Below, in pieces: positions 6,369-64,000 of a DNA stretch of 64,000 nucleotides. Position 1 is the stretch's first letter; the number at the start of each line of letters is the position of its first letter. Location: assembly GCA_029547205.1 (NCBI GenBank), contig JAKPPT010000068.1, positions 167,922 to 231,921 of the forward strand, in the 5' to 3' direction. The notes under the pieces were generated by a model. That model did no database searches and was not told the origin of the DNA. It was given only the letters and a program-made list of their open reading frames with translations. The position numbers and the translations under genes were made by a program. This DNA comes from Spirochaetota bacterium. Lineage in GTDB: Bacteria; Spirochaetota; Spirochaetia; Treponematales; UBA12059.

Positions 6369-6397
6369 TTGTCAATACTAATTTTTTTGTTCATACT
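6369..6397 (+). promoter_or_regulatory. Candidate sigma-70-type promoter for the ODP-chemoreceptor operon
   Basis: TTGTCA (6369-6374), 17 bp, CATACT (6392-6397), about 50 bp upstream of the ODP start. The spacing and the CATACT hexamer are the same as in the promoter before the slipin gene. Confidence 0.35.
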
Positions 6398-6447
6398 TAT
6401 AAAGAGTAATACGTTCCTATAGTATAGTAGGAATTGAGGAGCATAGT

Positions 6448-7224
6448 ATGATTAATACATCTGATGTTGGTGGTGTAGTACTCTACAGTGATGCAGACCA
6501 TAAATTTATCTGGCTCGGAGCAGAAAGCAAACAAAAATCTGGTGTTGTACAAACCATGCAATACCTTATAATTGACAAAGGAAAAGGTATTCTGCTTGAC
6601 CCGGGCGGAGTACATCTCTTTCCTCGCGTTGTCGCATCGGTAAGCAGATACATAAACCTCGATGATATCGTGACCATTTTCTTTTCTCACCAGGATCCCG
6701 ATGTATCAAGCGGTATTGCATTATGGTTAGGTGTAACCCAGGCATCAATCTATATTTCTGAATTATGGATACGATTTCTTCCTCATTTTGGTATTGTTGA
6801 TCCTGTACGCGTTAAGCCCATTGAAAAAACAGGGAAATTCCTCACACTCCCCTCCGGTGCACGCATGCAATTTATACCATCACATTTTATGCATTCGCCC
6901 GGTAATTATTCACTATACGATGAACGCTCACGAATACTTTTTTCTGGAGATATCGGTGGTGGTGTTTTTGATGAAGGTAAAGAAGAGCTCTATGCTGATG
7001 ATTTTCAGAAACACATACCTGTTATCGAAGGTTTTCATAAAAGGTTGATAGCATCAAATGCGGTTGCTCGTCGCTGGGTTGATATTGTACAGGCACTCAA
7101 CCCTGACATCATCGCCCCACAGCATGGAGCAATATTCCGTGGTGCGAGTGTTAAAGCTTTTCTTGCCTGGCTATCAACACTTCAGTGCGGTATTGATTTA
7201 CTTGATAACTGGTACAAGGAATAA
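6448..7224 (+). CDS. ODP-type oxygen-binding di-iron protein (metallo-beta-lactamase fold)
   Basis: A 258-residue soluble protein with the metallo-beta-lactamase fold of flavodiiron proteins but no flavodoxin domain. Metal-ligand candidates are visible in FSHQDPDVS, PSHFMHSPGN, FSGDIGG and the C-terminal PQHGAIF. Flavodiiron proteins reduce O2 or NO. In Treponema denticola a stand-alone protein of this type (ODP) binds O2 at a di-iron site and controls an adjacent soluble chemoreceptor. Here the next gene, 3 bp downstream, encodes exactly such a receptor, which strongly supports the sensor reading over an enzymatic one. GAGGAG sets the start at 6448. No redox partner gene is adjacent. Confidence 0.85.
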   Translation: MINTSDVGGVVLYSDADHKFIWLGAESKQKSGVVQTMQYLIIDKGKGILLDPGGVHLFPRVVASVSRYINLDDIVTIFFSHQDPDVSSGIALWLGVTQASIYISELWIRFLPHFGIVDPVRVKPIEKTGKFLTLPSGARMQFIPSHFMHSPGNYSLYDERSRILFSGDIGGGVFDEGKEELYADDFQKHIPVIEGFHKRLIASNAVARRWVDIVQALNPDIIAPQHGAIFRGASVKAFLAWLSTLQCGIDLLDNWYKE

Positions 7225-7227
7225 AGT

Positions 7228-8199
7228 ATGAAACGAAACCATAATTCCGAATTACAACCAGAGGTACCAAAAGCCAGACAGCTACAAAACCCACAAATTT
7301 CCTCACCGAACATAACAGAACCAGGTGAAATATGCAGAGATTTTGAAGATGAAATTACAATTCGTGATAACTATGCTCGTGCTATAGAATTGTTTACAAT
7401 TGGCTACAATAAAAGTGTTGTCCTGCAATCAGTAACAAACCACTCCATGAGCATTCTCGATGAAGCAATGGCTAATATCGAAGCAGGACTCTCAAGTATT
7501 GTTGCAGCATTTGAAGAAATCCGAGCAACCAGCACCAGTATAGCAGGCAATACTGAACGCATTAATGAAATGATGCAAGAAATTCTTGGCAATAATAACT
7601 CAGTCAACGGCAGTATCGCCGAACGCATGAAGGATATTGAATATGGTGCACAAACAGCTCAAGAAATAGGTTTAATGTTTGGCGAACTCCAGGAAAAAAC
7701 CAAAGGCATAACGGGTATTACATCCTCTATCCAGGATGTTTCAGACAGAACTAATATACTTGCTATCAATGCATCAATAGAAGCAGCACGTGCTGGTGCT
7801 GTAGGTAAAGGCTTTCGCATCATTGCTAACGAAGTACGTTCTCTCGCAGGACAAACAGGTAACTTTGCAAAAGAAATTGAAGCAAATATCAATGATTTTG
7901 CTAACACTGTCAACAGTATTGCCAACAAAATGAATGAATTTGTAATCATGCTTACCAGATTTAAGGATTCATTTGCTTCCGTATTAGCTGCTTCAGATGA
8001 AAATACTGACAATGCAAACAAAACAGGGCACCTGCTCACTCAAATTACCAGCTCAATGAAAGAAGAAACCCAGGCTCTTGGTGAAGGGTTGACTTCACTA
8101 GAGCGGATATCCAATAATGCTAAAGATACTCATGCAGTATTCAAAGCATTGAGAAATTCTCATAACTTCCTGGATACACTGCTCAATAAATCGAATTAA
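7228..8199 (+). CDS. Soluble methyl-accepting chemotaxis protein, partner of the ODP sensor
   Basis: A 323-residue chemoreceptor with no transmembrane segment and no recognisable ligand-binding domain. A polar N-terminus (residues 1-50) is followed by a long coiled-coil signalling hairpin. The hairpin tip and its flank read [18 protein letters not shown] and [15 protein letters not shown], diagnostic of the MCP signalling domain that docks CheA and CheW. It begins 3 bp after the ODP stop, with AAGGA overlapping that stop, so the two are cotranscribed and probably translated in matching amounts. The absence of its own sensor fits a receptor that borrows the di-iron protein as its input. Expected output is control of flagellar reversal in response to oxygen. 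Confidence 0.9.
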
Positions 8200-13150: not shown

Positions 13151-13304
13151 AGTGTCTCCTTTTATTGGTTTTTTGTAACTCTAGCACATTGTTATAAAAA
13201 AGTCAGTAATTAGTAAACTTGTGGATGTAGCTCATATACTCTAAACTTGCATGAGTAGTTATTATAGTCTAAACTTGTTACTAAGGGGGAAAGGAATACA
13301 GTAT

Positions 13305-14207
13305 ATGGATATTTCAGAAGTTTCTTATAAGAATATCATTGATGCCCTCTCTGACGGCCTTTACATTACCGATGTCAATAGAAAAATTGTATTCTGGAAC
13401 AGCGCAGCGCAATCTATAACCGGATTTTCTGCTGAAGAAGTTATTGGCAAGCACTGCTCCGACAACATACTCACCCATATCGATGATAACGGTAACAAGC
13501 TATGTCTATCACTGTGCCCGCTTGCTCTAGCAATACAGCAAGATAAGCCACAGGAAACTCATGTCTACCTGCACCATAAAAATGGACAAAGGGTGCCTGT
13601 ACTGGTTAAAGTACGACCACTCTATGATAATGAGGGCTCTATCATCGGTGCGGTCGAACTATTTTCTGATTATAGCAAACAAAAAATCTTTGAAGAAAAA
13701 CTTAAAACAATGGAACAACTGGCACTCATTGATACACTTATCCAAATTCCCAACCGAAGATATTTAGAACAGCAATTACATGCTGCTTTTGAACAAATAA
13801 AACGTTATCAAATACCGTTTGGATTCATTTTCCTGGATATTGATAATTTTAAAACCATCAATGATACCTATGGTCACTCAGTAGGTGATCAGGTATTAAA
13901 ATATGTAGCATCGACACTGCAGAACCTTACACGACCATTTGATACTGCTGCCCTATGGGGCGGAGATGAGTTCGCTCTCATAGTTTATAACGTTACAATA
14001 AGTTCACTATCTGAATTGGCTAATAGAATTCGCATGTTAATAGAAAATTCATACTATATACATGATCTAAAAACTGTTGGGGTAACAATTTCTTCAGGTG
14101 CTACGCTCATTAGAGAGACCGACTCAATTGAAACACTTATTGAACGCGCTGACAGGCTACTCTATACCAGTAAACATTCAGGGAAAAATTATTTAACTGT
14201 TAGTTAA
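13305..14207 (+). CDS. PAS-GGDEF diguanylate cyclase
   Basis: A 300-residue soluble protein. A PAS domain (about residues 10-125; DALSDGLYITDVNRKIVFWNSAAQ) is joined by a short helix to a GGDEF domain. The active site reads WGGDEF (GGDEF at 219-223), and an RPFD inhibitory I-site sits five residues before it, so an active, product-inhibited cyclase making c-di-GMP is expected. The PAS domain has several cysteines (CSDN, LCLSLCP), as in PAS domains associated with metal- or redox-linked sensing, but the cofactor is unknown. ATG 13305 is preferred to 13251 because GGGGGAAAGGA stands at the right distance. Convergent with the 5'-nucleotidase; a shared terminator lies between them. Confidence 0.9.
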   Translation: MDISEVSYKNIIDALSDGLYITDVNRKIVFWNSAAQSITGFSAEEVIGKHCSDNILTHIDDNGNKLCLSLCPLALAIQQDKPQETHVYLHHKNGQRVPVLVKVRPLYDNEGSIIGAVELFSDYSKQKIFEEKLKTMEQLALIDTLIQIPNRRYLEQQLHAAFEQIKRYQIPFGFIFLDIDNFKTINDTYGHSVGDQVLKYVASTLQNLTRPFDTAALWGGDEFALIVYNVTISSLSELANRIRMLIENSYYIHDLKTVGVTISSGATLIRETDSIETLIERADRLLYTSKHSGKNYLTVS

Positions 14208-63163: not shown

Positions 63164-64000
63164 ATGACAACCAATGATACCATGATAGATATGGCACAAA
63201 CTATTTCTATTCTTGTAACCTTTGTTGGCAATCGCGACCCCTATCCTGAAAACGACGAAGAACCAGGGCCTATACTTTCTTTTATTTTTGCAAAACATCC
63301 TGACGAAGCCTATATCCTCTGTTCAAACAGTACATATTTAGAGCGAGCCAATGACCTTGAATATGAAGCACGATCCGAAGGCAATACAACACGTTTCCAT
63401 CCGATTGACTTTTTTGTTAAGGACGCAATCGATTATAAAGAAATCTGGGAAACTCTCATACATGTACTTAAAACAATACAGGATGATGTAAATACAAAAC
63501 TTCCTAAAAACACTAAACCTAACTGGATATTTTTAATTGATTCAGGTACTCCACAAATGAAGACCTGTCTTTTGCTGGCATCACAGTTACAGATTGTTGA
63601 CGCAGAAATTTATCAAGGAATACCACCACAATTTGGTGGCGGAATCTATAAACCACGAAAAATTATAACTGAAAATTTACCATTTTTTAAATCTGAAAAA
63701 AATGGTACTTACAGTAAGCCAGCATCACACTTATCCGATTTTTATGGATCGGAAAAAACATTACAGAATATTTCATACGAAATACAAAAAGCTTCTTTGT
63801 ATGACGAACCAGTACTAATTTTAGGAGAAACAGGTACCGGCAAAACAATGATTGCACGCGCAATCCATAAAAACAGCAGCAGAAAAGATTTTCCTTTTAT
63901 AGAAATAAATTGCTCTGCTATACCAAAAGAGCTTGCAGAAAGCGAGCTTTTTGGCCACATGAAAGGATCGTTTTCGGGAGCAACATCACATAGAAGCGGG
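63164..64000 (+). CDS. CARF-domain sigma-54-dependent activator (RtcR-like), 3' end outside window
   Basis: The frame is open from ATG 63164 to the right edge: 279 residues seen. Residues of about 12-160 look like a CARF-type Rossmann sensor ([14 protein letters not shown]; a long variable part; [20 protein letters not shown], where SGTPQM is the CARF ligand-loop signature). From about residue 190 an AAA+ enhancer-binding domain starts: Walker [27 protein letters not shown], and the sigma-54 contact loop GSFSGA in place of GAFTGA. E. coli RtcR has this architecture and activates RNA-repair genes when its CARF domain binds RNA ends. No rtcB or rtcA is seen here; the divergent operon with a sigma-54 promoter is the likely target. 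Confidence 0.82.

Follow-up and report, generated by a model that had tools for sequence, protein, structure and literature searches.

A gene pair encoding an ODP-type di-iron protein and a soluble chemoreceptor in a spirochaete: a probable oxygen-sensing module of the known type

Two adjacent genes in the window (the whole 64,000-nucleotide stretch of spirochaete DNA that was analysed) form a real and complete member of the known ODP-receptor system. As judged from its sequence and its structural model, the first gene encodes an ODP-type protein, since Pfam, ligand residues and predicted fold agree, and the second encodes a soluble chemoreceptor. Together they very likely constitute a module of the established ODP type for sensing oxygen (and perhaps iron), probably translationally coupled, that would act via the receptor on CheA. 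The organism appears to be a spirochaete of environmental type and not an oral treponeme. The ODP oxygen-taxis module documented here, in what seems to be an environmental lineage of the Treponema order, is complete and accompanied by its downstream pathway. Comparison of the receptor with the others in the genome further asks how a receptor of another class enters a spirochaete array.

Results

The first gene encodes an ODP-type protein

The features of the first gene are as follows.

6448..7224, + strand: ODP gene (oxygen-binding di-iron protein, 258 aa), ATG at 6448, stop at 7222-7224; supported by PF19583, PDB 6qnm and AlphaFold/Foldseek
6436..6441, + strand: GAGGAG, read directly 6 nt before ATG 6448, likely the ribosome-binding site for ODP
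6688..6705, + strand: predicted metal-ligand motif H81-Q-D83-P-D85-V86 (HxDxDV), from alignments of 25 and 81 ODP rows
6892..6894, + strand: predicted ligand H149, from the alignments; flavodiiron proteins also have His here
6949..6951, + strand: predicted ligand D168, from the alignments of 25 and 81 ODP rows
7120..7125, + strand: Q225-H226, H226 being a predicted ligand and Q225 ODP-typical, in 80/80 rows reaching the site

The first-pass annotation had let the pair begin at 6369, which is 79 bases upstream of the ATG, whereas its end at 8199 agrees with the end of the receptor gene. The encoded protein scores 237.4 bits against the Pfam family ODP (PF19583, curated cut-off 27.2). This cut-off alone is insufficient for ODP identity because flavodiiron proteins pass it too, at lower scores. 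Pfam also places the protein in the Lactamase_B superfamily, and found no flavodoxin domain in it at E ≤ 0.001. Among solved structures, the ODP chains 6qnm (E 7e-117; 65.7% identity over 248 residues with the printed part of the PDB sequence) and 6qrq (E 3e-94) are the nearest, and flavodiiron proteins match the sequence at E about 1e-5. When the AlphaFold model (pLDDT 88, pTM 0.89) was submitted to Foldseek, the ten best matches were all ODP chains, followed by flavodiiron proteins, and the TMq values with ODP structures, 6r9n among them, were 0.84-0.93. By their Foldseek titles, 6qnm and 6qwo are the ODPs of T. denticola and T. maritima, and 6r9n is the peroxy di-iron form. The T. maritima protein (6qrq, 6qwo) has the same fold (TMq 0.89-0.93) but is only 53-54% identical to the ODP described here. 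In NCBIfam neither the ODP nor the receptor scored above a cut-off. A flavodiiron-fold protein without flavodoxin domain had been claimed from the sequence, with a comparison of its model to the ODP structure as the proposed check; these results bear out the claim on both counts.

The ligand pattern that had been noticed (HxDxD, H, D, H) is complete, as H81-x-D83-x-D85, H149, D168 and H226, and these residues stand at the ligand positions of flavodiiron proteins. Alignment with the ODPs of close relatives showed that the HxDxDV motif, V86, H146 and Q225 are invariant in 25/25 rows, the last three being ODP-typical residues besides the ligands. When the ODP of the window was aligned with those of 80 named loci, H81, D83, V86, H146, H149 and D168 were invariant in 81/81 rows and D85 was kept in 80 of them (one D85N), the conservation of residues 81-86 in this set being partly by construction because FSHQDPDV was one of two search patterns; Q225 and H226 are kept in all 80 rows that reach them. 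Three positions set the protein apart from flavodiiron proteins: D83 is replaced by Glu in those compared (the PDB alignment and the genome's own flavodiiron-like protein), H146 is absent from two flavodiiron proteins compared, and these two have G or S at the Q225 position. V86 and Q225 agree with what PMC7785958 describes for the T. maritima ODP, in which a Gln at motif 5 takes over from the third His of motif 2. The ligand set alone does not prove iron rather than zinc in the cell; a crystal structure exists of zinc-reconstituted T. maritima ODP (Foldseek title).

Two other readings of the first gene were weighed and rejected. That it encodes a non-signalling zinc hydrolase of the metallo-beta-lactamase type, placed beside a receptor gene by chance, is extremely unlikely. 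The protein does share the Lactamase_B superfamily, and distant ODPs are labelled 'MBL fold metallo-hydrolase' in plasmid records, but the zinc motif of these hydrolases is HxHxDH, in place of which HQDPDV (HxDxDV) is found here; this decided the rejection, and the 237-bit ODP match and the adjoining receptor gene in 79/80 loci argue in the same direction. We also consider it very unlikely that the protein is a flavodiiron-type enzyme that reduces O2 or NO and scavenges O2, with the receptor reporting its activity indirectly. The fold of the di-iron domain is indeed that of flavodiiron proteins, which match at E about 1e-5. This reading was rejected, however, because the flavodoxin domain that should follow the di-iron domain is absent. 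In addition, the HxExD motif of flavodiiron proteins is missing here (D83 in place of E), Q225 and H146 are missing from the flavodiiron proteins compared, and the genome already has its own flavodiiron-like protein, separate from the ODP, in a 443-codon open frame on contig C69. An ODP-type protein is thus the reading retained for the first gene.

The second gene encodes a soluble receptor without sensor domain

The receptor gene and the parts of its product discussed below are the following.

7228..8199, + strand: soluble sensor-less chemoreceptor, 323 aa; PF00015, no transmembrane segment, AlphaFold helical hairpin
7216..7221, + strand: AAGGAA, read directly within the final codons of ODP, likely the ribosome-binding site for the receptor
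7402..7455, + strand: conserved N-terminal stretch, residues 59-76, candidate ODP docking site (spirochaetes), from receptor alignments
7513..7518, + strand: E96-E97, candidate methylation site, invariant in alignment A2
7723..7857, + strand: receptor tip, residues 166-210, expected CheA/CheW-binding hairpin, from receptor alignments

Both genes lie on the + strand and are separated by 3 bases. Since AAGGAA lies inside the last ODP codons, ODP and receptor are probably translated together. The receptor scores 90 bits against Pfam PF00015 (MCPsignal, cut-off 35), its sole domain above a curated cut-off; a sensor domain was not found by Pfam at E ≤ 0.001, nor a transmembrane segment by a simple hydropathy scan. 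A sensor-less, membrane-free receptor 3 bp after the ODP gene, as first described, is therefore what the window encodes. The AlphaFold model is a helical hairpin (mean pLDDT 77.8) with a low-confidence N-terminus (residues 1-38) and helices at 39-188 and 193-321, and it was used for helix limits only because its pTM is low (0.42). The low-confidence start of about 38 residues (window 7228-7341) exceeds that of the 20 relatives in alignment A2, given the starts that we chose. The receptor of T. putidum is 41% identical over 282 residues, and the receptor described here is about 38 residues longer at its start.

The tip of MCPs is the CheA/CheW-binding region, and in the model residues 59-76 are located at the other end of the bundle. 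Within this stretch G59, Y60, N61, K62, L66 and T70 are kept in at least 80% of the spirochaete ODP receptor rows, and no column of it reaches 80% conservation in ODP receptors outside spirochaetes. In spirochaetes, this segment (GYNKSxxLxxVT) is in our view the leading candidate for the place where the ODP docks. E96-E97 could be a methylation site.

The gene pair is conserved in spirochaetes and in other phyla

To place the pair among its relatives, 25 close relatives of the ODP were fetched. A receptor gene follows the ODP gene in 24/24 of those with readable sequence, and the 25th ends at a contig end. This pairing, like the match of the ODP to its crystal structure, lies well outside what chance would give. 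One of the 24 receptor genes, that of L014, is split over two frames, possibly an assembly error there, and another is cut at a contig end. Alignment A2 was built from 20 of the 24 after exclusion of L011, L014, L022 and L027 (no clean start, frameshift or contig end). In a sample of relatives that includes this genome, PF19583 has a match in 54/58 genomes, a figure that is not an ODP count because flavodiiron proteins match this family also. With a profile of the close ODPs, 45/392 genomes of the phylum, this one included, match at E ≤ 1e-40. The close ODP type is therefore widespread in the phylum, though not universal.

A search of named genomes led to 161 ODP relatives, of which the best 80 were kept. 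A receptor frame follows the ODP gene on the same strand in 79 of these 80 loci, and the 80th ends within the ODP gene; since the loci were chosen by similarity to spirochaete ODPs, other gene arrangements are under-represented in this count, and since several genomes are shared with the 24 close relatives the two sets are not independent. Between the stop codon of the ODP and the first receptor codon in the alignment lie 6 to 290 nt (median 30, 79 loci). At L064 the receptor is split, and at L076 and L114 it is cut by contig ends. By their titles and taxon labels, the loci belong to Spirochaetota, Thermodesulfobacteriota, Aquificota, Nitrospirota, Campylobacterota and Thermotogota, apart from a few loci without phylum label. 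The first-pass annotation had suggested that this organism, if the pair is functional, shows it not to be limited to oral treponemes. As a novelty this does not hold, as the pair is also found in environmental spirochaetes and at least five other phyla and its wider occurrence had already been published: PMC7319448 describes ODPs recruited into various bacterial and archaeal pathways, in two operon orders beside receptor genes.

ODP and receptor distances are correlated (r = 0.83 for 76 pairs and 0.86 for the 50 spirochaete pairs, with 0/2000 permutations as high), a correlation that shared descent alone could yield because the comparison has no control gene.

The genome encodes a chemotaxis pathway of the T. 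denticola type

We next looked for the pathway on which the pair would act. The genome (2.65 Mb, 151 contigs, 99.6% complete) contains one CheA match, three CheW domains, one CheX and three FliG_C matches, one of them weak and with an internal stop. Genes for CheA (830 aa), a CheW-CheR protein (449 aa), CheX (154 aa) and a CheY-like receiver (145 aa) stand in a row on one strand; a check for CheX-linked genes elsewhere, suggested by the first reading, turned up cheX in the same row as cheA. Pfam finds Hpt, P2, dimerisation, ATPase and CheW domains in CheA, and the third CheW domain belongs to a small protein encoded apart from this row, on contig C35. The CheA row and the presence of FliG indicate that a target pathway for the pair exists. 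PMC7666581 gives such a CheW-CheR protein as the hallmark of F2 systems.

The same paper describes the ODP TDE2498 as an oxygen sensor for T. denticola chemotaxis, the receptor TDE2496 as devoid of membrane or sensing modules and able to modulate CheA, and a change in CheA ordering in the array upon ODP loss. According to the review PMC6978683, ODP binds iron and oxygen and contacts its cognate receptors in a conformation-dependent manner. The system described here resembles TDE2498/TDE2496 (6qnm, 6r9n) in its ODP (66% identical, same ligand residues and fold), in a partner receptor without transmembrane segment or sensor domain and in an F2-type gene set with CheW-CheR and CheX, but the organism belongs to a different spirochaete family.

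Receptors of the genome occupy 16 distinct reading frames (17 matches, two in one frame). One of them, L048 (contig C57, about 63359-63769, - strand), has an MCP signalling domain followed by SBP_bac_5 (157 bits), and no standard tip motif was found. To our knowledge an MCP signalling domain before a family 5 extracellular solute-binding domain is an unusual order.

ODP-linked receptors group apart from the conventional receptors compared

The tip of the ODP receptor reads AARAG and is followed by 133 residues. At the Arg position, which aligns with R388 of E. coli Tsr, the genome's 14 other receptors that carry the tip motif all show His (AAHAG or SAHAG). Eleven of these 14 have 165-182 residues after the tip, the rest having 48, 113 and 196, and the C-terminal arm of the ODP receptor is about 36 residues shorter than that of most sister receptors (about 169 residues). 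Two relative genomes were compared, with 15 loci each out of 23 matches each, one per genome being its own ODP receptor. In G024, a genome from the family of T. lecithinolyticum, His is found in 15/15 receptors examined. In G031, 10 of the 13 receptors with the motif have His and three have Arg, and two have short arms of 132-133 residues, so that neither the tip His nor the arm length is a rule. Among ODP receptors classed as spirochaete 48/50 have Arg at this site (one His, one Lys), as do all 26 from outside spirochaetes.

A tree was computed for 126 receptors, and a single branch in it (support 100/97, recovered in 100% of 200 bootstrap trees) separates the 77 that are linked to ODP from the others. 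The trees were computed on 150 columns, with many long branches flagged and a small conventional set. They took 76 of the 79 partner receptors (L064, L076 and L114 were too short) and the alignment 75 (L124 also left out); among the genome's own conventional receptors L043, with too little after the tip, and L048 were left out. After addition of Tsr, Tar, Tap, seven plasmid receptors and the receptor of PDB 3g67, the 77 ODP-linked receptors stay together (100/96). The only addition that falls among them is 3g67, so that the strict count for the 77 alone is two changes and not one. We take 3g67 to be the soluble receptor Tm14 of T. maritima, a species that also has an ODP; it lies inside the ODP-linked group but is only distantly related to the receptor described here. 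The conventional receptors in the comparison, 59 in all with 13 from this genome, lie without exception on the other side of the branch, and in the enlarged tree the spirochaete conventional receptors cease to form their own group.

Another assignment of the ODP receptor, as an ordinary short receptor like those of E. coli, was considered and rejected: Tsr, Tar, Tap, the seven plasmid receptors and six receptors from non-spirochaete ODP loci all group with the conventional ones. The comparison suggests that the ODP receptor belongs to a dedicated class that is plugged into arrays of another class, a class reading limited by the tree's holding no short soluble receptors selected for being ODP-free. 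More tentatively, and with slightly less than even confidence, we propose that ODP and its own class of soluble receptor are one lineage found in at least six phyla, apart from the conventional receptors of their hosts and differing from them in length and tip in spirochaetes, and that they may travel as a portable oxygen-taxis cassette for foreign arrays, with the spirochaete docking site in GYNKSxxLxxVT. No pointer to the receptor-class mismatch was found in the portions covered of the literature on ODP and soluble receptors, a coverage that does not extend to Muok 2019 (PNAS). What this analysis adds, and what is worth a second look, is the separate lineage of the ODP receptors and how poorly it matches the remaining receptors of the host.

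Proposed mechanism of signalling

We propose the following mechanism for the pair. The ODP has the predicted fold of the di-iron half of a flavodiiron protein and lacks the flavin domain used to reduce O2, so that O2, once bound, would stay at the iron site and serve as the signal. The protein would then act on the soluble receptor, perhaps at the end far from the tip, while the receptor tip would enter the CheA/CheW array of the cell, where it would change CheA activity and thereby swimming. O2 binding, the ODP-receptor contact and the effect on CheA are inferred from the work on T. denticola; the docking end and the dedicated receptor class are our own proposals. Insertion into the same array is not self-evident because tip and length differ from those of the other receptors of the genome.

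That mismatch lends some support to another reading, in which the pair does signal but the receptor sits in a cytoplasmic cluster of its own, or the main input is iron status or redox rather than O2. For the input, the title of Muok 2019 (PNAS) names Fe(II) as well as O2 as signal. A cluster of its own is harder to reconcile with the single CheA match of the genome and with T. denticola, for which PMC7666581 reports that no cytoplasmic arrays were observed. Taken together we regard this reading as unlikely, and retain oxygen (perhaps iron) sensing through the receptor on CheA. How the receptor inserts into the array could bear on CheA ordering, since ODP loss changes that ordering in T. denticola (PMC7666581).

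Other gene arrangements around ODP-like genes

ODP-like genes were also observed in other contexts. On a Pseudoalteromonas plasmid (L170:3372-4717) a 205-aa protein annotated as a chemotaxis protein, without Pfam match, precedes an ODP, and a Shewanella plasmid has a similar arrangement whose upstream partner is a hypothetical protein. These pairs resemble the one described here in the PF19583 match of the Pseudoalteromonas protein and the short chemotaxis-annotated protein just upstream of it, but the order is reversed, and the standard tip motif is absent from both partners (205 and 207 aa). In Eleftheria a GGDEF gene adjoins an ODP-like gene, and in Acinetobacter the ODP-like gene has no signalling neighbour. 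The window itself encodes a PAS-GGDEF diguanylate cyclase (13251-14207) about 5 kb downstream of the pair, which no evidence here links to the ODP. In two relatives of the same order (L029 and L030), Pfam finds ODP, GGDEF and receiver domains fused in one protein, a possible link from oxygen to cyclic-di-GMP.
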